A stretch of DNA of 64,000 nt from Archangium violaceum (GCF_016887565.1 NZ_CP069396.1:1515001-1579000), one strand, 5' to 3'; counted from the first letter of the stretch, positions 27,999 through 43,113 are shown. Made by a program: numbers and translations. The notes: generated by a model not told the origin, from the sequence alone.

Positions 27999-28025
27999 GC
28001 CCCTAGGAAGGGCCTGCCCTTGGGT

Positions 28026-28235
28026 GCCCATGTCGGGCCTTCAAGAGGGAAGCCGGTGAGAGTCCGGCGCGGTCCCGCCACTGTGATCGGGCGGCCCTGA
28101 CGTCAGGGCAGGGGTCCTCGGCAGTCGCCACTCCGGCTCGTGGGCCGGCGGAAGGCGGAGGAGCCCTTCTGGCAGGCGCGGCGTGCGCCTCGGCCGGAGT
28201 CCCGGGAGTCAGGAGACCTGCCCGGGGGTGTGGGC
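28026..28235 (+). promoter_or_regulatory. Cobalamin riboswitch 1
   Basis: The core GGGAAGCCGGTGAGAGTCCGG is followed by the conserved CCCGCCACTGTGAT and, 110 bases later, the B12 box AGTCAGGAGACCTGCC (28207-28222). The outer P1 stem pairs GCCCA (28026-28030) with TGGGC (28231-28235). It precedes the BtuB-like gene by 55 bp. A hairpin that covers that gene's ribosome site lies between them, which suggests translational repression when cobalamin is bound. Confidence 0.92.
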
Positions 28236-28253
28236 GCGATGCGTCCGCGATGG

Positions 28254-28283
28254 CCTTCTCTCTTCGACGGAGAGAGTGGAAGG
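28254..28283 (+). promoter_or_regulatory. Ribosome-site-sequestering hairpin after riboswitch 1
   Basis: CCTTC plus TCTC (28254-28262) can pair with GAGA and GAAGG (28272-28283). The 3' arm is the GGAAGG ribosome site of the receptor gene at 28291. This is the expected expression platform of the riboswitch. Confidence 0.55.
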
Positions 28284-28290
28284 CGGATGC

Positions 28291-30273
28291 ATGCGGCGGT
28301 CGTACCTCGCCGGGCGGTGGCTCTGCCTGGCGCTCAGCACGAGTGGAGTCGCGCTCGCCCAGGAGGCCGAGGAGCCCCTGCTCGTTCCCGCCGTGGAGGT
28401 GGAGGAGGCGCCCGTCGCCCCCGGTTCTCCCGAGGAGGCCTCGCGCAGGGACCCGAGCGGCGCCCTCACCGTCATCCGCGTGGACGAGTTCGGCGGCGCG
28501 GCCCGGGACACCGCGGCGATGCTGTCCACCGCCCCCGGCGTCACGGTGCAGGACGTGGGCGGGTACGGGCAGAGCAAGAGCCTCGTGGTGCGGGGCGCGT
28601 CCTCCAATGGGACGCTCGTGCTGCTCGACGGCATTCCCCTCAATGGCGCGGGTGGCATCGCGGACCTGTCGCGCGTGCCCGCCGCCCTGGCCGAGCGCTT
28701 CGAGGTGCTGCGGGGGGGTGCTGGAGCGCGCTACGGCTCGGGAGGGCTGGGCGGCGCCATCAACGTCATCACCCGCCGTCCCGGGGCGACTCCGCGCGTG
28801 GCGGGAGAGCTCTCCTACGGGAGCTGGGACACGGCCACGGGGTGGCTGTCCGCCACGGGGCCGCTCGCGGGCGGCGAGGCCTTGCTGCTCGTCCATGGAG
28901 GCACCTCCAGCGGGCGTTTTCCGTATTCCTTCGACCCGAGCCCCACGCTGCCCGGAGACGCGCTCATCGAGCGCCAGCGCACCAACAACGACGCACGGGG
29001 CGCCGGAGGCCTGCTGCGGTTGCGCAGGGAGCTCGGCCGGGGTTTCTTGGCGGACCTGCTGGGCGAGCTGTCCTTCGACGAGCGGGGCCTCGCCGGCACC
29101 GCGCAGAACCCGAGCGAGGACGCGCGGCAGTCCGGAGGGCGTGGCTCGGCCAACCTGCGGCTCGCGGGCACGCTGCCGGGCGGTGTGCGGACGAACGCGC
29201 GCGCGTACTTCCGGCGGGACCGGCTGGCGCTGTCCGGTGGTCCGTGGGGACAGCGGGACGCACAGGTGCAGTTGCTCGGTGGGATGGAGGTCGAGGGGCA
29301 GGTGCTGCTGGGCGGATGGCATTCGCTGTCCGCGCTGGTGGGCGTGGGCGGGGAGTCCGTGTCCGCCGCGGAGACCAACGCCGCCTCCGGTGGCGAGCCG
29401 ACGTGGCTGCGCGCCAGCGTGATGGCGATGGATGAGATGCTGCTGTGGGATGGGCTGCTCACCGTCGCGCCATCGCTGCGCGTGGAGCGGGCGGGCCCGT
29501 ACACGCTGCTGTCCCCGAAGGTGGGCGTCACCGTGGCGTTGCCCGCGGGCCTCGAGGTGCGCGCCAACGCGGGCCGCTCGCACCGCGCGCCCTCCTTCCT
29601 GGAGCTGTACGTGCGCCAGGGCACGCTGCTGCCCAACCCGGACCTGCGCCCCGAGAGCGCGCTGTACGCGGACGCGGCCGTGGTGCACCGCTCGGAGGTG
29701 TCCTTCGCCTCGGTGGGGGGCTTCGCCAGCCTCTATGAGGACCTCATCTCCTACGAGGCCTACCCTCCCGGCGCGGCGAAGCCGTACAACTTCGCCAACG
29801 CCCGCGTGGTGGGGCTCGAGGCCGAGGGCGAGTGGAGGCCCCATCCGCTCCTCTCCGGAGCCTTCAGCTATACGCTCACCGTCTCGAGCGACCTGCAGCG
29901 GGATGGGCGTTTCTACCTGCGCGAGCTGCCCTACCGGCCTCGACACAAGCTGGCCGCGCGAGTCCTGGGCGGCCCCCGGTGGCTCACGGGTCGGGTGGAG
30001 GTGGTGGCGCAGTCGGCCCATTTCCTCACCCGGGATGGCGCGATGTCCCTGCCCGGACGCACCTTCGTCCACGCGGGCCTGTCCAGTACCTTCGGCTCGC
30101 GCACGGAGCTCACGGTCTCCGGCGAGGTGCGGAATCTCTTCGACGTGCACGCCGAGGACTTCGTCGGGTATCCGCTCCCCGGCCGTGCTGTGTTCCTGTC
30201 GGTGGCGGGAGCCTTCGAGCCGGGTGTCCCCTCCGAGTCCTCTTCGGCTTCCAGGACGGAGGCTCCTCCATGA
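28291..30273 (+). CDS. btuB: TonB-dependent receptor, BtuB-like (cobalamin)
   Basis: A 660-aa outer-membrane receptor. The signal peptide ends near GVALAQ. A plug domain (about residues 50-165) has APGVTVQDVGGYGQSKSLVVRG-type sequence, visible as VRGASSNGTLVLLDGIPLNG and GGLGGAINVITRR. A 22-strand-like barrel follows with SYGSWDTATGW and FNLFDVHAEDFVGYPLPGR-type ends. The preceding cobalamin riboswitch makes vitamin B12 or a related corrinoid the likely ligand. The frame ends in an ATGA overlap with a lipoprotein gene, so receptor and lipoprotein are made together. Confidence 0.88.
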   Translation: MRRSYLAGRWLCLALSTSGVALAQEAEEPLLVPAVEVEEAPVAPGSPEEASRRDPSGALTVIRVDEFGGAARDTAAMLSTAPGVTVQDVGGYGQSKSLVVRGASSNGTLVLLDGIPLNGAGGIADLSRVPAALAERFEVLRGGAGARYGSGGLGGAINVITRRPGATPRVAGELSYGSWDTATGWLSATGPLAGGEALLLVHGGTSSGRFPYSFDPSPTLPGDALIERQRTNNDARGAGGLLRLRRELGRGFLADLLGELSFDERGLAGTAQNPSEDARQSGGRGSANLRLAGTLPGGVRTNARAYFRRDRLALSGGPWGQRDAQVQLLGGMEVEGQVLLGGWHSLSALVGVGGESVSAAETNAASGGEPTWLRASVMAMDEMLLWDGLLTVAPSLRVERAGPYTLLSPKVGVTVALPAGLEVRANAGRSHRAPSFLELYVRQGTLLPNPDLRPESALYADAAVVHRSEVSFASVGGFASLYEDLISYEAYPPGAAKPYNFANARVVGLEAEGEWRPHPLLSGAFSYTLTVSSDLQRDGRFYLRELPYRPRHKLAARVLGGPRWLTGRVEVVAQSAHFLTRDGAMSLPGRTFVHAGLSSTFGSRTELTVSGEVRNLFDVHAEDFVGYPLPGRAVFLSVAGAFEPGVPSESSSASRTEAPP

Positions 30274-31904
30274 CGTGGAAATACCCTCACCCCAGCCCTC
30301 TCCCAGAGGGAGAGGGGGCATACACGGTGTTGTGCCGGGTGACGTTGGTGATGGTGTTGTTGCTGCTGGCGGGGTGTCCCGACGAGGGCCCTCTGTGTGT
30401 CGAGGCGCAGACCCGCTGTGGTGAGGCCTGTGTCGACCTCTCCAGCTCCTCGTCTCACTGTGGGGCTTGTGGGGTTGTCTGCTCCGCCACGGAGGCCTGT
30501 GTCGAGGGCTCCTGCCGTTGTCGCTCGGGCGCCACGGTGTGCGGTGGCCAGTGTGTCGTCACCGCGTCGGACCCCTCCCATTGTGGTGGTTGCGCGGGCG
30601 AGGGCGGCACGGCGTGCGCTCCGGACCAGGTGTGCGAGCAGGGGCAGTGCAAGGCCGCCTGCACCCTGGAGTCCTCCGTCCGCTGCGATCGCTCGTGTGT
30701 GGACCCCGGCACGGATGCGTTCCACTGTGGCACCTGTGGCAACGTGTGCCCGGACGTCCAGAGCTGCCGCGGTGGGACGTGCACCTATGACCTCGTCGCC
30801 GCGTGCTTCAACACCGGACAGGTGGTGGGCCTCCAGGCGGGGCCGGACGTGAAGGGACCCGCGGTGGCGGTGGGCACCAGTCCCCAGTCCGTCGCGCGCA
30901 TGCAGGACGTGCTGCTGGTGCTGGATGCCTCCATGCGGCTCCTCCAGGCCCGGCTCTCCGACTACGGCGAGCTGCCCGCCCGGAACACCACGGGGCTGGT
31001 GCCCAACCAGCTCCTCGTTCGCGACCCCTACGTCTTCGTCCTCAACTCCACCAGCAACACCCTGCAGGTGCTCCGGCGCGACGAGGAGCCCTCCAACGGC
31101 CCCGGCCCCCGCTTCGCCGATGGCATCACGCTCACCAACGTGGGCAGCGTGAACTTCGGCGCGAACACCAACCCGTACGGATTCACGCAGTCGGGCTCGG
31201 ACGTGTACGTCACGCTGCTGGGCAATCTCCAGACGGACCCGTCCGCGGGCGGCAAGGTGGCCCGGGTCTCGATGGCGGATCCCACCGCGCCGGCCATCAT
31301 GGACGTCTTCACGTTGCCTACGGGCGAGGCCCTGAAGCCCTTCCCGGGCCGTACCACCGTCCCCACGCCAGCCGGCATCGCCGCGCGTCAGGGCCGGGTG
31401 TACGCCGCCCTCGGCAACCTGGACCCGAGGGACTTCACCGTCGGAGGCCCCGGGTTCCTGGCCCGCATCGACCCCACCACCCGCGCGGTGGAGCTCATCG
31501 AGCTCGGCGAGGGCTGCCTCAACCCGTTCTGGGTTGTCTCCATGGGGGAGCGGCTGCTCGTGAGCTGCGGCGGTGGGACGACCTATGACCGCGACTTCAA
31601 CCTCATCGACGTGAGGGGGACCGGCTTGGTGCTGCTCGGCGCGGACGACCGGGTGGTCGCCTCGCTCGCGCTGCGGTGCCCGGAGGGAACGTCGTGCCCG
31701 CTGCCCTCGGCTGGCCGCTTCTCCGTGGTGGGCAACCGCGCCTACGTCGGCGACAACAACGCGGGCCGTGTCTTCGTCATCGAGGTGGTGGGCGACTCGC
31801 TCGTGGAGCGGCGAGGATTCGGACCCGGTGCCGAGCCGCCCATTCTCGTCTGCCCGCGCGACAACAAGCCCTCCCTCGTCGGTGATGTCGTCGCGATGCC
31901 TTGA
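30270..31904 (+). CDS. Cys-rich, propeller-like lipoprotein coupled to the BtuB-like receptor (possible BtuG analogue)
   Basis: A 544-aa lipoprotein. Codons 5-16 are a palindromic repeat read as PHPSPLPEGEG. A hydrophobic segment with lipobox LLAGC follows (Cys36). Residues 37-170 are a stalk of Cys-rich units (CGACGVVCSATEAC, CGTCGNVCPDVQSC). The remaining 370 residues show repeated short beta motifs such as PNQLLVRDPYVFVLNS and GRVYAALGNLDPR, as in YncE/NHL-type beta-propellers. Translational coupling to the receptor and the riboswitch control suggest a surface corrinoid-binding partner, like the propeller lipoprotein BtuG of Bacteroides. That function is inference. Confidence 0.7.
   Translation: MTWKYPHPSPLPEGEGAYTVLCRVTLVMVLLLLAGCPDEGPLCVEAQTRCGEACVDLSSSSSHCGACGVVCSATEACVEGSCRCRSGATVCGGQCVVTASDPSHCGGCAGEGGTACAPDQVCEQGQCKAACTLESSVRCDRSCVDPGTDAFHCGTCGNVCPDVQSCRGGTCTYDLVAACFNTGQVVGLQAGPDVKGPAVAVGTSPQSVARMQDVLLVLDASMRLLQARLSDYGELPARNTTGLVPNQLLVRDPYVFVLNSTSNTLQVLRRDEEPSNGPGPRFADGITLTNVGSVNFGANTNPYGFTQSGSDVYVTLLGNLQTDPSAGGKVARVSMADPTAPAIMDVFTLPTGEALKPFPGRTTVPTPAGIAARQGRVYAALGNLDPRDFTVGGPGFLARIDPTTRAVELIELGEGCLNPFWVVSMGERLLVSCGGGTTYDRDFNLIDVRGTGLVLLGADDRVVASLALRCPEGTSCPLPSAGRFSVVGNRAYVGDNNAGRVFVIEVVGDSLVERRGFGPGAEPPILVCPRDNKPSLVGDVVAMP
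30281..30318 (-). repeat. Dispersed palindromic repeat, copy 3 (inside a coding start)
   Basis: Reverse-orientation copy (CCCTCACCCCAGCCCTCTCC... arms) lying wholly within the first codons of the propeller-like lipoprotein gene, translated as PHPSPLPEGEG upstream of the signal segment. Confidence 0.8.
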
Positions 31905-31911
31905 GCCTCCC

Positions 31912-32790
31912 ATGAAGACCCGCCTCGTCCCGTTCGTCCTGCTCGTCGCGCTGTGCCTCGTCTCCGTCGCGCACGCCGCCCCTCCCCATGTGGGCCCTCG
32001 CTTCCTGGGCCCCAAGCCTCCCGAGAAGGTGAAGCGTGTGGTGACGCTCGCCCCGTCACTCACGGAGACGGTGCTGGCCCTCGGGGCCGGGAGCACGCTC
32101 GTGGGCGTCTCGCGCTTCGACGAGCTCAAGGAAGTGGCCGGCCTTCCCCGCGTGGGCGGCTTCATCGACCCGTCCGTCGAGGCCGTGGTGGCCCTCAAAC
32201 CGGACCTCCTGCTCGTGCAGCCCGGCCCTGGCAACCAGCGGCCCGTGGAGAAGCTGGCCGAGCTCGGTGTGCCCGTGCTCCTGCTGCCCCTGCAAACCGT
32301 GGCGGATACCCTGGCGGCCCTGCGCGCCGTGGGAAAGGCGCTCGGAAGGGAGAAGGAGGCGAATGCCCTCGTCCAGGGCATCGAGTCCACGCGCACCCGC
32401 GTGCGTGAGGCCGCCAGGACGCAGAAGCCGCGGCGCGTCCTGTTCGTCTATGGCTTCGAGCCGCTCGTGGTGGCTGGGCCCGGCTCCTTCGCGGACGAGC
32501 TGTTGCGTGACGCGGGGGCCGTCAACGTGGCGGCGGACGCGGGCTCGGCCTACCCCGTCTACTCGCTCGAACGGGCGCTGACTGCTCGGCCGGACGTGGT
32601 GGTGGATGCCGCGGACGTGGACGTGGGCAAGGACAAGCTCGTGAGGCTTCCGGGGCTCTCCCAAGCGCGATGGGTGGAGGTGCCCTCGATGGCGTTGCTA
32701 CAGCCGGGGCCGTCGCTCGGAAGAGGACTGGAGGAGCTCTTCTCGCTGCTGTACCCCTCCATGAAGCCCGATGCGGGTACTGTGCGCTGA
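31912..32790 (+). CDS. btuF: Cobalamin-binding periplasmic protein BtuF-like
   Basis: A 292-aa class-III binding protein with a signal peptide (FVLLVALCLVSVAHAA). The fold signature is VVTLAPSLTETVLALGAGSTLVGVS, read in pieces as LAPSLTETV and VGVSRFDE. KPDLLLVQ and DELLRDAGAVNVA are family markers. It starts 7 bp after the lipoprotein stop and would hand corrinoid to BtuC. Iron-chelate specificity cannot be excluded from sequence alone, but the upstream riboswitch argues for cobalamin. Confidence 0.85.
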   Translation: MKTRLVPFVLLVALCLVSVAHAAPPHVGPRFLGPKPPEKVKRVVTLAPSLTETVLALGAGSTLVGVSRFDELKEVAGLPRVGGFIDPSVEAVVALKPDLLLVQPGPGNQRPVEKLAELGVPVLLLPLQTVADTLAALRAVGKALGREKEANALVQGIESTRTRVREAARTQKPRRVLFVYGFEPLVVAGPGSFADELLRDAGAVNVAADAGSAYPVYSLERALTARPDVVVDAADVDVGKDKLVRLPGLSQARWVEVPSMALLQPGPSLGRGLEELFSLLYPSMKPDAGTVR

Positions 32791-32800
32791 CCGTGTATGT

Positions 32801-32837
32801 CCCCTCTCCCTCTGGGAGAGGGCTAGGGTGAGGGTCA
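32801..32837 (+). repeat. Dispersed palindromic repeat, copy 4
   Basis: Forward copy (CCCTCTCCCTCTGGGAGAGGG plus GGTGAGGGTC tail) in the btuF-btuC gap. With copy 5, 43 bp downstream in the opposite orientation, it forms an inverted pair able to fold into a long hairpin in the transcript. Confidence 0.8.
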
Positions 32838-32858
32838 TTCCTCGTCCGTGGGTGAAGA

Positions 32859-33959
32859 ATGCGTGAGATGGGGACGGTAGACCCTCACCCCCGCCCCTCT
32901 CCCAGAGGGAGAGGGAGGAAGAGCTTCACCCTGGCACGAGCGCTCGGGCTCGGTGGGGCGTTCCTCGTCCTGTTGCTCGCGGTGTTCCTCCTGGCCGTGC
33001 GCTTCGGCGATCAGCCCATCTCCCTCTCCGACGCATTCGGCGATCCCAGCTCCTCCAGTGCCGTCATCTTCTGGTCGGTCCGCCTGCCGCGTGCGCTGCT
33101 GGCGGCCCTCGTGGGCGCGGGGCTCGCCGCCTCCGGTGTCACGTTGCAGGGCGTGTTGCGCAACCCGCTGGCGGACCCGTTCGTCCTCGGTGTGTCCGGT
33201 GGCGCGGCGCTCGGAGCCACCCTCGCCCTGGCCCTCGGGTTCGCCACCGTGGGGGAGGTGGCCATGGGCCTCGGAGCCGGGTTCGAGCGCCTCTCCGCGC
33301 CGGCCCTGTTCGCCTTCGTGGGGGCCGTGGCGGCCATGCTCTTCGTGCTCGCGGCCAGCCGGGGCCACGGTGGCCGCGCGCCCTATGCCGTGCTCCTCAC
33401 CGGTATCGTCTTCAACGCCTTCGCCTCCGCCGTCATCACGCTCGTGAAGACGCTCTCCGATCCGAACCGGCTCGGGGAGATCCTCTACTGGCTCGCGGGG
33501 ACGCTCGGTTACGAGCGCACGGGGACGCTCCTTCTGTCCGCGCTCCTCCAGGCCGTGGCCATCGGCGTGATGCTGGCGCTCTCGGGGCGGCTCAACCTGC
33601 TCACGCTGGGTGACGAGGACGCGGCCTCGCTCGGCGTGTCCGTGGTCTGGACGCGGCGGTGGTTGCTGCTCGCGGCGAGCGCCAGCGTGGCGGACGCCGT
33701 GGTGCTCTCGGGGCTCATCGGCTTCGTGGGGCTCATCGTGCCCCACCTGCTCCGGCTCGCCTTCGGGCCGGACCAGCGGTTGCTCGTGCCGCTCTCCGCG
33801 CTCGGCGGGGCGGCGTTCCTCCTGCTCGCCGACCTGCTGACGCGGCTGGCCATCCCGCTGTTCGGCTCCGAGCCCCCCGTGGGCGTGGTGACGGCGCTCC
33901 TCGGAGGGCCGCTGTTCCTGGCGCTGCTGTACCGGAGCGGGCGGCTGTCGGCGGGGTGA
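32859..33959 (+). CDS. btuC: FecCD-family permease, BtuC-like
   Basis: A 366-aa inner-membrane permease with about ten helices. Family motifs are LPRALLAALVGAGLAASGVT, LQGVLRNPLADPFVLGVSGG, and the coupling region GLIGFVGLIVPHLLRL. The annotated ATG at 32859 gives an N-terminus of which residues 8-19 come from palindromic repeat copy 5; the usual BtuC start would be nearer the first helix at residue 26. No better start codon with a ribosome site is obvious. Its ATPase partner is not next to it; the likely one is at 42316. Confidence 0.85.
   Translation: MREMGTVDPHPRPSPRGRGRKSFTLARALGLGGAFLVLLLAVFLLAVRFGDQPISLSDAFGDPSSSSAVIFWSVRLPRALLAALVGAGLAASGVTLQGVLRNPLADPFVLGVSGGAALGATLALALGFATVGEVAMGLGAGFERLSAPALFAFVGAVAAMLFVLAASRGHGGRAPYAVLLTGIVFNAFASAVITLVKTLSDPNRLGEILYWLAGTLGYERTGTLLLSALLQAVAIGVMLALSGRLNLLTLGDEDAASLGVSVVWTRRWLLLAASASVADAVVLSGLIGFVGLIVPHLLRLAFGPDQRLLVPLSALGGAAFLLLADLLTRLAIPLFGSEPPVGVVTALLGGPLFLALLYRSGRLSAG
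32881..32917 (-). repeat. Dispersed palindromic repeat, copy 5 (inside the btuC start)
   Basis: Reverse copy inside the first 20 codons of the btuC-like gene as annotated, inverted relative to copy 4. It is translated as DPHPRPSPRGRGR, a sequence with no resemblance to BtuC proteins. Confidence 0.8.
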
Positions 33960-34022
33960 AGCGCGGGCGCTGTCAGGAACGGATTTCCGCCGCGTCTTTT
34001 CTCGATGAAAGGAGCGGTGACC

Positions 34023-34175
34023 ATGACCACGGTGACGAAGCAGAGCCCGATGAACCCCGAGCACCTCAACGACGCTGACACTGGCATCGACGCGCTCTCG
34101 CGCACCGGTCTGGATACCGCTCTGGACCTTCTGGTTGGCCTCGAGTCCCTTCGCGGCCTACCGCCTGGAACCTGA
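34023..34175 (+). CDS. Small ORF (50 aa) with strong ribosome site and own terminator
   Basis: The ATG at 34023 is preceded by AAAGGAG at good spacing. The peptide starts MTTVTKQSPMNPEHLNDAD and ends GLESLRGLPPGT; it is acidic in the middle with an amphipathic helix-like DTALDLLVGLESL. No signal peptide, no Cys, no membrane segment. A perfect stem-loop with a U-rich tail follows at 34212. It lies between btuC and the tRNA-like array. I do not recognise it. It could be a small regulatory protein, a precursor peptide, or a chance frame. Confidence 0.45.
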   Translation: MTTVTKQSPMNPEHLNDADTGIDALSRTGLDTALDLLVGLESLRGLPPGT

Positions 34176-34211
34176 GCTCCGAGCCTCGTCACACGACGCG
34201 GCACGGTGCTC

Positions 34212-34255
34212 AGAGGCCGGGCTCCCAGCAAACGGGACCCGGCCTCTTCCTTTTC
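34212..34255 (+). terminator. Rho-independent terminator
   Basis: AGAGGCCGGG (34212-34221) pairs perfectly with CCCGGCCTCT (34238-34247), with an inner TCCC/GGGA stem, followed by TCCTTTTCC. It ends the small-ORF transcript just before the tRNA-like array. Confidence 0.8.
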
Positions 34256-34271
34256 CGGCTCCCGAGCTCCC

Positions 34272-34344
34272 GCCCCGTTCGTCTATCGGCGAAGGACACC
34301 GCGCTCTCAATGCGGAAAGACGGGTTCGACTCCCGTACGGGGTA
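34272..34344 (+). tRNA. tRNA-Glu (anticodon CTC)
   Basis: A full cloverleaf: acceptor GCCCCGT/ACGGGGT with a G-U first pair, D stem GTCT/GGAC, anticodon stem CCGCG/TGCGG with loop CTCTCAA, and T stem ACGGG/CCCGT with loop TTCGACT. U33 is present and the anticodon CTC reads GAG. The body matches bacterial tRNA-Glu. The 3' CCA is not encoded; CTCGCA follows. Confidence 0.85.
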
Positions 34345-34357
34345 CTCGCAGTCAGAA

Positions 34358-34428
34358 GCTTCCGGATGCGATTGGATCGCAGCACGGCCGTCTACCGTGT
34401 GAACAGGGTTCGATTCCCTGCGGAAGCG
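34358..34428 (+). tRNA. tRNA-like gene, anticodon position GTC, non-canonical loop
   Basis: All four stems pair perfectly: GCTTCCG/CGGAAGC, TGCG/CGCA, CACGG/CCGTG, CAGGG/CCCTG with T loop TTCGATT. The anticodon loop is CCGTCTA, which puts C instead of U at position 33 and GTC (Asp) in the anticodon. Position 8 is G rather than U and position 10 is T rather than G. Perfect stems with broken consensus positions suggest a specialised or diverging tRNA-like RNA rather than random decay. Confidence 0.6.
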
Positions 34429-34436
34429 CTCGCAAT

Positions 34437-34508
34437 GCGGCCGTGGCCGAGAGGTGAGGCCCCTGAGCGCCACTCAGGTGAACGCGGGTTCGACTCCCGC
34501 CGACCGCT
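34437..34508 (+). tRNA. tRNA-like gene, anticodon position GCC, non-canonical loop
   Basis: Acceptor GCGGCCG/CGACCGC has one C-A mismatch. Anticodon stem CCTGA/TCAGG is perfect, with loop GCGCCAC, so GCC (Gly) is the anticodon and C sits at position 33. T stem GCGGG/CCCGC has loop TTCGACT. The loop contains no U at all. The D arm resembles Glu/Gln-type tRNAs (TGGCCGAGAGG) more than tRNA-Gly. No CCA is encoded. Confidence 0.6.
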
Positions 34509-34532
34509 CTTCGCAGTCCAGCAGTCTCCGTT

Positions 34533-34607
34533 GCCGGAGTAGCCCAACTTGGTAGAGGCCCCAGATCGAGAGTCTGGTGGTTGCGGGTTCGAATCCCGCC
34601 TTCGGCA
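34533..34607 (+). tRNA. tRNA-like gene, anticodon position GAG, non-canonical loop
   Basis: Acceptor GCCGGAG/CTTCGGC pairs with one G-T and one A-T. Anticodon stem CCAGA/TCTGG is perfect, with loop TCGAGAG giving GAG (Leu) and C33. T arm GCGGG-TTCGAAT-CCCGC. The variable loop is only five bases, whereas bacterial leucine tRNAs have a long variable arm. Either identity is not Leu, or the gene is not a normal elongator. Confidence 0.6.
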
Positions 34608-34623
34608 CTCGCAGTGAATACAT

Positions 34624-34698
34624 GCCGCGGTAGCCCAACCTGGTAGAGGTGCTGCGCTCAGAACGCAGAGGTTGCGGGTTCGAATCCCGCCCGCGGTA
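34624..34698 (+). tRNA. tRNA-like gene, anticodon CAG, short variable arm
   Basis: Acceptor GCCGCGG/CCGCGGT (G-U first pair), anticodon stem CTGCG/CGCAG with loop CTCAGAA, anticodon CAG (Leu codon CTG) and normal U33, T arm GCGGG-TTCGAAT-CCCGC. The variable loop is short (AGGTT), unlike any standard bacterial tRNA-Leu. It is closely related to the previous gene in its D arm (TAGCCCAACCTGGTAGAGG). Confidence 0.65.
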
Positions 34699-34740
34699 CT
34701 CCCATTGACAACAGAAGCCGTCCGCCATATCCCGCGCCCC

Positions 34741-34913
34741 GTCTTCGGTTCCTCCACCCTGGGGTGGAGGCTCGAGGGAACCCGGTGCGAGTCCGGGACT
34801 GCCCCGCAGCGGTGAACGGGAACGAACGCCGTCAGGAAAGCACTGGTCCTCTGTCGAGGGCTGGGAAGCGACGGTCAGTAGGGCGCCCGTGAGTCCGAAA
34901 ACCTGCCGAGGAC
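34741..34913 (+). promoter_or_regulatory. Cobalamin riboswitch 2
   Basis: P1 pairs GTCTTCGG (34741-34748) with CCGAGGAC (34906-34913). The core GGGAACCCGGTGCGAGTCCGG is followed by GACTGCCCCGCAGCGGTGA, and the B12 box is GAGTCCGAAAACCTGCC (34891-34907). A hairpin CCGTGCC/GGCACGG follows at once and may be the expression platform. It starts 42 bp after the last tRNA-like gene and leads into the lipoprotein operon at 35068. Confidence 0.92.
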
Positions 34914-35067
34914 CCGTGCCACCCGGCACGGACATCACCGAGGCCTCCGAGGGGAGGCAGCGGGTGCGTGGCGGGTGCGTCCTCGTTCGGGCCGTGTCCC
35001 CCCTCGCATCCCGCCCCCGCTTCCCCTCGCAGGCATTGCGCCCGCGGGGGCGAGGAGCAGGACGCGC

Positions 35068-36402
35068 ATGAAGACGGCAATGAAGGGTTCGCGGTGGTTC
35101 GGTCGCTTCTCGGTGGCTCTGAGCGCCGCGGCGCTGGGGCTGCTGGTCACCGGCTGCGAGCCGGAGTGCGTGGATCGGTTCGACTGCGCCCGGAAGGGCA
35201 ACGTCGGCGAGGGCAAGCAGTTCGCCTGCGTGGACAACCGCTGCGTGACGCAGGACATCCCCAACGAGACGGGCTCGGATGCCGGGACGGGTTCGGATGC
35301 CGGGACGGGCTCGGATGCGGGTACGGACGCCGGGACGGGCTCGGATGCCGGGACGGACGCGGGCGTCGCGTGCGCGGATCTGCCGCATGATCCGAAGCTC
35401 GGCACGCTGCAGCTCCAGACCGGCTTCGCCGCCGCCGAGTCCGCCACGGTTCCCGAGGGAATCGGCGCGGTGACGGTCATCCAGAGCGGTAGCGAGTACA
35501 CGTTGTATGGCCTGCGCAATACCGACAACACCAGTGTCGCCGATGACAGCATCTACGCGCTCGGCACCTGGCCGAACGTCACCCTGGGGTCGGCGGCCCT
35601 CTACGCCGTCGTTCCCGATGCGGATCGCGGCAACAGCACGTACCCGAGCGGGTTCCTCACCAATGATGGCACCCGGCTGCTGACCGGGTACACCCGGGGC
35701 GCCGAGGGCAGTCCCGGCAATGTGCTCGTCTATGACACCGCCACCCCGAAGGACTCCGTCTACATCTCCGCGCCCGGCAATTTCTCCGCCGCCGCCGTGT
35801 CCGGCGCCTTCTTCATCAATGGGCTGGGAATCGACGGCGCGTCCCAGGGCGGTCTCGCCGTCTACGCCCTGAATGTGGCGTCCAAGCCCTTCCAGGGCTC
35901 GAAGCTGGCGACCTTCCCGACCACGAACGTACTCGCCGCCAGCGGCTACTCGGCGGTGACGAGCGACAAGGTCGCCGTGTTCGGCTACAGCGTCCCCGAC
36001 AGCTCCTCCAGCGACCCCTGGGCCCCCTACATCAACCACGTGCATGCGGTGTCCCCCGCGCTGTACACGCCGGCGGTCTCGAGCAGGTCGACCCTTGCCC
36101 TCTCCACCACCAACGCGCCTGAAATCTACTCGGGCAACGACCTCCAGTCGGTCGCGGGGTTCGGCAGTGGCGTGGCGCTGCATCGCGGTACCTTCACGGC
36201 CACTCGCGACGTCTCGCGCATCGAGCTGACGCCAGGCGGCATCAACCCCGAAGCCGTCACCGCGGGCGACCTCACGCCCGTGCTCACCACCAGCAACACC
36301 TGCACCAACGTGGTGTCGATGGCGCCCATGGGCCCGGACCTGCTCGTCGGCGTGAAGGACAAGAACGGCCGCCGGCTCGTCCGCCTCCAGCAGAAGCAAT
36401 AG
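35068..36402 (+). CDS. Lipoprotein under riboswitch 2, propeller-like
   Basis: A 444-aa lipoprotein with lipobox LLVTGC (signal peptide about 28 residues). A Cys-bearing segment is followed by a Gly-Ser-Asp-Ala-Gly-Thr tandem repeat linker (residues about 67-98). A C-terminal domain of roughly 320 residues has recurring short strands such as SEYTLYGLRNTDN, GNVLVYDTATP and GGLAVYALNVAS, ending LLVGVKDKNGRRLVRLQ, suggestive of a beta-propeller. I chose the ATG at 35068, which has GAGGAG upstream. With riboswitch control, a surface role in corrinoid capture is inferred. No direct homolog is recognised. Confidence 0.7.
   Translation: MKTAMKGSRWFGRFSVALSAAALGLLVTGCEPECVDRFDCARKGNVGEGKQFACVDNRCVTQDIPNETGSDAGTGSDAGTGSDAGTDAGTGSDAGTDAGVACADLPHDPKLGTLQLQTGFAAAESATVPEGIGAVTVIQSGSEYTLYGLRNTDNTSVADDSIYALGTWPNVTLGSAALYAVVPDADRGNSTYPSGFLTNDGTRLLTGYTRGAEGSPGNVLVYDTATPKDSVYISAPGNFSAAAVSGAFFINGLGIDGASQGGLAVYALNVASKPFQGSKLATFPTTNVLAASGYSAVTSDKVAVFGYSVPDSSSSDPWAPYINHVHAVSPALYTPAVSSRSTLALSTTNAPEIYSGNDLQSVAGFGSGVALHRGTFTATRDVSRIELTPGGINPEAVTAGDLTPVLTTSNTCTNVVSMAPMGPDLLVGVKDKNGRRLVRLQQKQ
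35268..35363 (+). repeat. 18-bp tandem repeat in a lipoprotein linker
   Basis: Unit GGCTCGGATGCCGGGACG repeated about five times with small changes, encoding GSDAGT. It forms a flexible spacer between anchor and domain and is likely length-variable between strains. Confidence 0.8.
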
Positions 36403-36404
36403 CC

Positions 36405-37085
36405 ATGAGGACGCACGGCACCGTGGCTCGCTGGAGCGCCTGGCTCGTCATGTCCCTGCTCGCCGTGGGCTGCGGGGGTCCCTCCGAGGAGGAGCCCCCC
36501 CAGGTCCTGGTGTGCCAGAGCGACAACGACCCGTTCGCGGACAAGGTCGTGTCCTTCTCTCCCGGGGAGGAGGCTGGTTTCGGTCAGGACGGCTACCCGG
36601 ACATCGTGCTCGGGCCTCCCCACGGGACGGGCTCCGGCATGGGCTCGCTGCACGTGCTCTCCCTCGGTAGGAGCGGGGAGATCGTCCTCGAGCTCACCGA
36701 CATCGGCGTGGTGGATGGGCCCGGTGTGGACCTGCTCGTCTTCGAGAACCCCTTCGGGTACTTCGCGGAGACGGGCGTGGTCTCGGTGAGCGAGGACGGC
36801 CAGACGTGGCGCGACTTCCCCTGCGACCCCACGAACAGGGCCGGTGGCTATCCCGGCTGCGCGGGCGTGAAGCCGGTGAGCTCTTCACCGGAGAATGGCA
36901 TCAGCCCCACCGACCCGGCCATGGCGGGCGGTGATGGCTTCGACCTGTCTGCCCTCGGCGTGGCCCGGGCCCGCTTCATCCGCATCCGTGACAGCGGGTC
37001 CAACTCCTATGGCTCCTCCGCGGGCGGGTTCGACCTGGACGCGGTCGCGGTGGTGAACGGCTCGCCCATCTGCGAGTGGAGGTGA
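36405..37085 (+). CDS. Second lipoprotein of the riboswitch-2 operon
   Basis: A 226-aa lipoprotein with lipobox LAVGC. The mature part begins SDNDPFADKVVSFSPGEEAG and contains LGPPHGTGSGMGS, VDLLVFENPFGYFAETG, and a closing ARFIRIRDSG and AGGFDLDAVAVVNG. This looks like a discoidin/jelly-roll-type beta sandwich found in surface proteins. It starts two bases after the previous stop. Operon position implies cobalamin-regulated expression and a shared surface function; ligand binding is inferred, not shown. Confidence 0.7.
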   Translation: MRTHGTVARWSAWLVMSLLAVGCGGPSEEEPPQVLVCQSDNDPFADKVVSFSPGEEAGFGQDGYPDIVLGPPHGTGSGMGSLHVLSLGRSGEIVLELTDIGVVDGPGVDLLVFENPFGYFAETGVVSVSEDGQTWRDFPCDPTNRAGGYPGCAGVKPVSSSPENGISPTDPAMAGGDGFDLSALGVARARFIRIRDSGSNSYGSSAGGFDLDAVAVVNGSPICEWR

Positions 37086-37090
37086 CGCGC

Positions 37091-37591
37091 ATGTCCCGCC
37101 CTCCTCCGGACTCGGAGTCGCGGGTGGAGCGGCGGGCCGTGCTCGGCTCGCTGCTCCAGGGCACCTGTGCTCTCGCCGCCCTCTGCGCCGGCTGCGGCCC
37201 CGAGTGGCGCGAGGCCACCGTGCTCTCCGATGAGCAGGTCTGCGGTGTCTCGCCCGGCCGCCCCGAGGACGGCTGGGTGGAGGTGAAGCTCTCCGACCAC
37301 CCCGAGCTGCGCGCGCGGGGTGGCTCGGCGGTGGTGCGCCGCCCCGACGCCCTGCTCGACGCGCTGGTGCTGCACACCGCGTCGGGCTGCTTCGCCGCCG
37401 TCTGGCACATCTGCACGCACGGTGACTGCCATGTCACCTACGTTCCCGGTGAGTCCCTCCTGGAGTGCCCGTGCCACGGCTCGCGCTTCGGCGAGGACGG
37501 CCGGGTGCTGCGCGGTCCCGCCACCCGCCCGCTCCAGTCCTTCAAGGCGGTGCGGGTGGGGGAGTCGGTGTGGCTCCACCGGCCTCGGTGA
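37091..37591 (+). CDS. Rieske [2Fe-2S] lipoprotein, probably Tat-exported
   Basis: A 166-aa protein with twin arginines (RVERRAVLG, residues 11-19) and a lipobox CAGC at 32-35. The cluster ligands are C108-T-H110 and C126-P-C-H129 (CPCHGSRF). C113 and C128 are placed to form the Rieske disulfide. I chose the ATG at 37091, with GGAGG eight bases upstream; a GTG at 37076 is less likely. It follows the previous gene by 5 bp and so belongs to the riboswitch-2 operon. No cytochrome b or oxygenase partner is present, so its redox partner is unknown. Confidence 0.85.
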   Translation: MSRPPPDSESRVERRAVLGSLLQGTCALAALCAGCGPEWREATVLSDEQVCGVSPGRPEDGWVEVKLSDHPELRARGGSAVVRRPDALLDALVLHTASGCFAAVWHICTHGDCHVTYVPGESLLECPCHGSRFGEDGRVLRGPATRPLQSFKAVRVGESVWLHRPR

Positions 37592-42315: not shown

Positions 42316-43113
42316 GTGGTGGACACGCTCCTCGACATCCAGGGACTGAGCGCCGGTTATGGGCCCTCGCCCGTGCTGCGGGGCGTGGACTGCGCCGTGC
42401 GTGCGGGAGAGCTGTGGGCGGTGCTCGGGCCCAACGGCACGGGCAAGAGCACGTTGCTGCGAAGCGTGCTCGGAGCGATGCCCTGGACGCGCGGAGTCAT
42501 CCGGCTGCTGGGGCGGGATCGCTCGGAGTGGGAGGCGCGGGCGTTGGCGCGGCAGGTGGCGTGGGTGCCACAGACCGTCGAGTCGGCCGAGGGCTTCAGC
42601 GGACTGGAGCTGGTGCTGATGGGGCGCAGCCCGCACCTGGGACTGTGGGGGCTCACCTCGGCGAGCGACGAGGCGCTGGCGCGGGAGGTGATGGAGGAGC
42701 TCGAGGTGGCCTACCTGGCGGAGCGCTCCTGCGAGGCCATGTCCGGAGGCGAGCGCCGGATGCTGCTGCTGGCGCGCGGGCTGGTGCAGCAACCGAGGCT
42801 GTTGCTGCTGGATGAGCCCACGGCCTTCCTGGACGTGGCCCACCAGGTGGGGGCGCTGGAGCGCGTGCGCGAGCGGGTGGACGCGGGCCTGGGCGCGGTG
42901 GCGGTGCTCCACGACGTCAACCTCGCGGCGGCCTTCGCCACGCACGTGCTGCTGATGCGTGACGGATTGGTGCTGGCCCAGGGCCCCGCGTCGGACGTGC
43001 TCCAACGCGAGCGGCTCGAGGCCCTGTACGGTGTGCCCATGGAGATGGCGAGCGCGCCCTCGGGAGCGCGCCTGTTCGCCCCGCGGGCACGAGGGCCGGC
43101 CGAGCGTCGCTAG
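42316..43113 (+). CDS. btuD: ABC ATPase of the BtuD/FepC type
   Basis: A 265-aa ATPase. Walker A is GPNGTGKS at residues 38-45, the signature is MSGGERR and Walker B is LLLLDEPTAFLD. VPQTVESAEGFSGLELVLMG is typical of cobalamin/siderophore importers. It starts with GTG 20 bp after the kinase stop, without a clear ribosome site. No permease is adjacent. The only orphan FecCD permease in the window is the btuC-like gene 8.4 kb upstream, so I assign the pair on that basis. Confidence 0.78.
   Translation: MVDTLLDIQGLSAGYGPSPVLRGVDCAVRAGELWAVLGPNGTGKSTLLRSVLGAMPWTRGVIRLLGRDRSEWEARALARQVAWVPQTVESAEGFSGLELVLMGRSPHLGLWGLTSASDEALAREVMEELEVAYLAERSCEAMSGGERRMLLLARGLVQQPRLLLLDEPTAFLDVAHQVGALERVRERVDAGLGAVAVLHDVNLAAAFATHVLLMRDGLVLAQGPASDVLQRERLEALYGVPMEMASAPSGARLFAPRARGPAERR

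Follow-up and report, generated by a model that had tools for sequence, protein, structure and literature searches.

A candidate lipoprotein-assisted corrinoid capture locus under two cobalamin riboswitches in Archangium violaceum

Does a myxobacterium take up vitamin B12 with the help of lipoproteins, a strategy so far studied in gut Bacteroidetes? The question is raised by a 64,000-nucleotide stretch of Archangium violaceum (NZ_CP069396.1:1515001-1579000; the window), part of a 13.2-Mb genome, in which two cobalamin riboswitches precede genes for a BtuB-like receptor, a propeller lipoprotein (PropLP), BtuF-like and BtuC-like transport proteins, two further lipoproteins (LP1 and LP2) and a Rieske lipoprotein. 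We consider it probable that the locus is a cobamide-repressed corrinoid capture and import system. A sequence-only reading of the window had already proposed lipoprotein-assisted, B12-regulated corrinoid uptake, and this is supported by the analysis reported here, in which the gene at 30270 is predicted to encode a beta-propeller lipoprotein adjoining BtuB. Coordinates are those of the window, and features lie on the plus strand unless stated otherwise.

Riboswitches, operons and the transport chain

Riboswitches were called with Rfam model RF00174 (gathering score, 31.5 bits; model length, 189). Both elements cover model positions 1-189: riboswitch 1 lies at 28005-28239 (53.1 bits, E value of 2.2e-10) and riboswitch 2 at 34729-34924 (96.3 bits, E 9.5e-23). 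The sequence-only reading had called two complete riboswitches, and its starts (28026 and 34741) fall inside these matches. Riboswitch 1 is followed by btuB-PropLP-btuF-btuC (operon 1) and riboswitch 2 by LP1-LP2-Rieske (operon 2). Five tRNA genes, found with ARAGORN at 34272-34699, intervene, and the two operons therefore are probably separate units. Folding of the riboswitch-2 expression platform was no better than that of shuffled sequences (z -0.8). A hairpin upstream of btuB (z -2.5) could mask the ribosome site.

In the whole genome, RF00174 finds only four cobalamin riboswitches. The third is located upstream of CbiX, CbiD and an ATP-binding cassette (ABC) ATPase, and the fourth precedes nrdAB, the genes for the two subunits of a ribonucleotide reductase that works without B12. 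The rest of the regulon thus consists of established B12-related functions.

The gene content read earlier for operon 1 (a TonB receptor, a propeller lipoprotein, a Peripla_BP_2 protein and a FecCD permease) was recovered in full. The BtuB-like TonB-dependent receptor (28291-30273; 660 amino acids) comprises a PF00593 barrel and a PF07715 plug, and in NCBIfam it matches the B12 receptor model TIGR01779 best (120 bits against a cut-off of 599.7). The top NCBIfam match of the BtuF-like periplasmic binding protein (31912-32790; PF01497 [Peripla_BP_2], E 3e-31) is BtuF NF002894, at 93 bits against a cut-off of 234, and the top matches of the BtuC-like FecCD permease (32859-33959; PF01032, E 5e-81) are to BtuC, at 220 bits against 461.

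No ATPase gene is found between btuC and LP1, which ruled out a BtuD within the operon. An ABC ATPase of the FecE/BtuD class, which the earlier reading had omitted, is encoded at 42316-43110, about 5 kb past the Rieske gene. Among the genome's matches to BtuD it ranks second, scoring 220 bits against 537 for the corrinoid ATPase NF007082 and 115.9 against 281 for NF002981. The genome encodes two FecCD permeases, and the other one sits in a system with an ATPase that scores above the heme-ATPase cut-off. Homologues of the ATPase at 42316 are syntenic with BtuF-BtuC in those relatives in which the region is complete, and at a distant locus (L172) the homologue directly follows BtuC. Since the second FecCD system has its heme ATPase, the BtuC-like permease has no neighboring ATPase, and synteny joins the ATPase to BtuF-BtuC, it is likely that 42316-43110 encodes BtuD.

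The three lipoproteins and the Rieske protein

Operon 2 was found to encode, as had been read, two lipoproteins and a Rieske lipoprotein. The first two (35068 and 36405) have lipoboxes, and the Rieske protein bears a lipobox along with a twin-arginine signal. LP2 (36405-37085) was modeled with AlphaFold2 (predicted local distance difference test [pLDDT] score, 85.6), and the model was realigned with VIA to the top 1000 candidates from Foldseek. First among them is BtuH2 with B12 (7biz; Z score of 13.6 over 157 residues, 2.9 A, 18% identity), followed by the H-domain of BtuG1 (8blw; Z 12.4). After these BtuH types come PAPP-A (Z 9.9) and discoidin/CBM32 domains (Z 9 or less). When a profile of 48 LP2 sequences was searched against 177,635 PDB sequences, 7biz again ranked first, with a weak match (E 0.11). 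LP2 N115-x-F117 aligned with positions 299 and 301 of the 7biz construct. These positions would correspond to BtuH2 Asn399 and Phe401 at an offset of 100, which fits a construct of 103-593 plus tag and is the sole offset in the aligned stretch that places an Asn and a Phe there. In BtuH2, Asn399 touches the phosphate of B12, and Phe401 its lower ligand (PMC8941943). All 48 homologues keep N115 and 46 keep F117, and Q61 (40 of 48) is a possible counterpart of BtuH2 Gln333.

Judged from these results, LP2 is the strongest candidate B12 binder of the locus; the earlier reading had counted it simply among the lipoproteins. That reading had also called the system independent of that of Bacteroides, which is unsupported, because the predicted fold of LP2 is that of the B12-binding domain of BtuH and two of its residues match BtuH contacts. 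BtuH2 (BT_1956) shares with LP2 the fold and the aligned Asn-x-Phe pair, which in BtuH2 reaches the nucleotide loop and the lower ligand, whereas identity is low, as given above, and the LP2 domain is shorter (about 190 residues versus about 270 in BtuH). LP2 was also considered as a DUF4465 protein; members of this group (BtuJ; PMC13398666) are lipoproteins that bind B12, are linked to riboswitches and adopt a fold of the jelly-roll type. This assignment was rejected, as no Pfam DUF4465 match was obtained in the 48 LP2 homologues at E values up to 1; the structure lists contained no BtuJ entries, and the two may be distantly related. No LP2 gene was found on plasmids.

PropLP (30270-31904) has an MXAN_6577-like Cys-rich N terminus (NF041328, 146 bits) and a C-terminal beta-propeller (AlphaFold2 model; pLDDT 87). 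BtuG is among its top structural matches (Z 29.2), and BtuG chains mostly gave TMt values of 0.59 to 0.69 in Foldseek. PropLP has in common with BtuG that it is a beta-propeller lipoprotein encoded beside btuB under a cobalamin riboswitch. Superposition upheld the propeller fold that had been proposed for the 30270 protein; its likeness to BtuG is unspecific, other propellers scoring higher, and a BtuG role for PropLP therefore rests on position and regulation and not on fold.

LP1 (35068-36402) carries a lipobox, a linker rich in D, A, G, T and S, and a domain of about 340 amino acids that has no relative in Pfam, NCBIfam or PDB. The possibility that LP1 is a propeller like PropLP was discarded, as profile comparison aligned the signal and Cys-rich parts only and the domains alone gave nothing. 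A self-match of the LP1 ends was dropped as a likely alignment artefact. The Rieske [2Fe-2S] protein (37076-37591, start probably at 37091; PF00355, E 5e-11) contains both ligand motifs, C113-T-H115-G-D-C118 and C131-P-C133-H134. Among 25 sequences, C113, H115 and C118 are conserved in at least 90%, and C131, C133 and H134 are invariant. It also has the two disulfide cysteines typical of bc-type Rieske proteins, which usually are of high potential. LP1 and the Rieske protein are conserved partners in the locus, with a putative action in capture. Why a Rieske protein should be encoded in a B12 operon is a question raised by this locus.

Distribution in Myxococcota and the Leptospira pair

The neighborhood survey included same-genus relatives, among them named Archangium species (L101 and L102). 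The order btuB-PropLP-(btuF-btuC)-LP1-LP2-Rieske recurs in relatives of the family, some loci keeping LP1-LP2 without the Rieske gene. A riboswitch lies directly upstream of LP1 in 36 of 41 copies in the family; of the five copies without one, three are on short or truncated contigs. This family-wide conservation rules out chance as the source of the riboswitch-operon arrangement. LP2 was found in 100 of the 195 Myxococcota genomes sampled. With the locus running through the family and LP2 through much of the phylum, the earlier ascription of the system to this myxobacterium is too narrow. Thirty-five loci, mostly outside the family, were scanned: in 19, a same-strand cobalamin riboswitch precedes LP2 at a distance of up to about 1.7 kb, and 2 more have one elsewhere in the locus. 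A BtuB-like gene shares the locus with LP2 in L172, L173 and L174. Four loci (L083, L079, L098 and L099) contain several tandem LP1/LP2 copies and as many as three cobalamin riboswitches each. Between the riboswitch and LP2 of L172 (L172:4195-5370) lies a gene whose product resembles, by eye, a YVTN-type propeller lipoprotein and has no Pfam match.

In distant Myxococcota, the place of LP1 between the riboswitch and LP2 is taken by a gene for a lipoprotein with one to three repeats, each about 95 residues long (L158, L143, L125, L119, L140, L153, L154, L162, L135, L146, L165 and L156). Eleven of 12 of these repeat lipoproteins match the Leptospira LIC13354 exoprotein family (NF047669) at an E value of <0.01, under the curated cut-off, and 47 of the 48 LP2 homologues match the LIC_13355 family (NF033170), likewise under the cut-off, with a best E value of 4e-13. 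LP2 is thus a distant relative of LIC_13355; the window itself has LP1 and not an LIC13354-type gene. In host-adapted Leptospira interrogans, LIC13354 and LIC13355 were induced together (3.77- and 3.72-fold), and the same RNA survey placed cobalamin riboswitches at LIC12374 (btuB) and LIC20135 only (PMC3953431). These family matches suggest that the LIC_13354/LIC_13355 pair may have a corrinoid-related role. A wider scheme, in which myxobacteria and their relatives combine a BtuH-type lipoprotein with a Tat-exported Rieske protein that changes the redox state or upper ligand of corrinoids outside the cytoplasm, and in which the Leptospira pair is a branch of the same system, we regard as unlikely.

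Proposed mechanism, alternatives and known systems

In the mechanism that we propose, low intracellular cobamide would lead both riboswitches to permit expression. BtuB and PropLP would form the outer membrane entry, with PropLP probably serving as a lid in the manner of BtuG. LP2, as a BtuH-type protein, and probably LP1 may retain corrinoid on the outer side of the outer membrane and then pass it on, and transport across the inner membrane would fall to BtuF, BtuC and the detached ATPase. The Rieske lipoprotein may set the oxidation state of cobalt or remove the upper ligand of the corrinoid.

Several observations weigh against this proposal. The host genome also contains cobalamin synthesis genes, so that a need for uptake is not obvious. 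Riboswitch 2 has been lost by deletion from two congeners (G007 and G028; L065 and L066); most of the aptamer is cleanly deleted in G007, where flanking sequence is kept, and operon 2 may be expressed constitutively there. A YVTN surface-layer propeller (Z 34.1) and 6-phosphogluconolactonases (Z 33) outscore BtuG as matches of PropLP. For LP2, the sequence match to BtuH is weak, and the BtuH2 contacts Gln333, His476, Tyr510, Trp511 and Trp577 lie outside its alignable stretch. Finally, the BtuB, BtuF, BtuC and BtuD candidates all score under the NCBIfam equivalog cut-offs, for which reason we use names such as BtuB-like and call the ATPase a candidate BtuD.

The low transport scores, together with matches of the same proteins to heme and siderophore models, would also fit a receptor ligand other than vitamin B12, either another corrinoid-like compound or a metal chelate (incomplete corrinoids, cobinamide or heme). 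We think this quite unlikely, as a B12 model is the top NCBIfam match for BtuB, BtuF and BtuC each, the genes are under riboswitch control, and a separate heme-type ABC system exists in the genome. A different doubt concerns LP1 and LP2, which could be regulated with the locus and yet not bind corrinoid, LP2 being a discoidin-like (CBM32/F5-8C) binder of carbohydrate or protein, a scaffold or an adhesin. Discoidin/CBM32 domains hold the first Foldseek ranks for LP2, 7 of the 48 homologues give weak F5_F8_type_C matches (E 0.06 at best), and the LP2 relative LIC_13355 is reported to be a laminin- and plasminogen-binding lipoprotein (PMC11891782). On realignment, however, BtuH tops these domains (Z 13.6 versus 9.9 or less), the contact residues are conserved, and LP2 is recurrently linked to B12 riboswitches, which makes a nonbinding LP2 distinctly improbable in our estimation.

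Operon 2 could instead form a redox or cofactor-sparing unit, in which a Rieske electron carrier and its lipoprotein partners take over from a B12-dependent function during B12 shortage, in the manner of the B12-independent nrdAB, which also is under a cobalamin riboswitch in this genome; a Rieske protein is a classic electron carrier. However, operon 2 adjoins btuB-btuF-btuC in many genomes, LP2 is BtuH-like, and several loci without the Rieske gene retain LP1-LP2, and we consider such a unit very unlikely. The preferred reading remains corrinoid capture and import.

The locus resembles the cobamide loci of B. thetaiotaomicron (BtuB, BtuG, BtuH, BtuJ, BtuK and BtuL; PMC10404256, PMC8941943 and PMC12751083) in its cobalamin riboswitches, in a BtuB beside a propeller lipoprotein, in a BtuH-fold lipoprotein and in the presence of BtuF and BtuC. 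Unlike those loci, it belongs to another phylum, LP2 stands alone, with neither PKD nor propeller domains, PropLP bears a Cys-rich N terminus, the ATPase is detached, and the host has cobalamin synthesis genes as well; for the LP1 family and the Rieske lipoprotein, we found no counterpart reported for the B. thetaiotaomicron loci. The core transport chain is held in common with the Escherichia coli BtuB-BtuCDF system, which is without surface lipoproteins or a Rieske protein. In the set of papers searched, BtuH together with myxobacteria turned up only in the DUF4465 paper, and hence we found no description of this gene set. BtuH was described in gut Bacteroidetes as being without a known structural homologue. 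The presence of a BtuH-type lipoprotein behind riboswitches in much of Myxococcota, even in organisms with cobalamin synthesis genes of their own, points to a strategy that is shared widely or of ancient origin and far commoner than had been assumed, and testable functions can be offered for the uncharacterized families LP1, LP2, LIC13354 and LIC_13355.

A dispersed palindromic repeat, CTCTCCCAGAGGGAGAGG, occurs in six copies in the window (0 expected), at 1651, 13405, 30298, 32803, 32897 and 54505. Two copies lie in the 5' ends of the PropLP and BtuC frames, and the true starts of these genes may therefore be further downstream. On the minus strand, 62821-63112 matches the Rfam 5' ureB small RNA (92.6 bits), which is possibly not a real small RNA but merely conserved urease coding sequence of the other strand.

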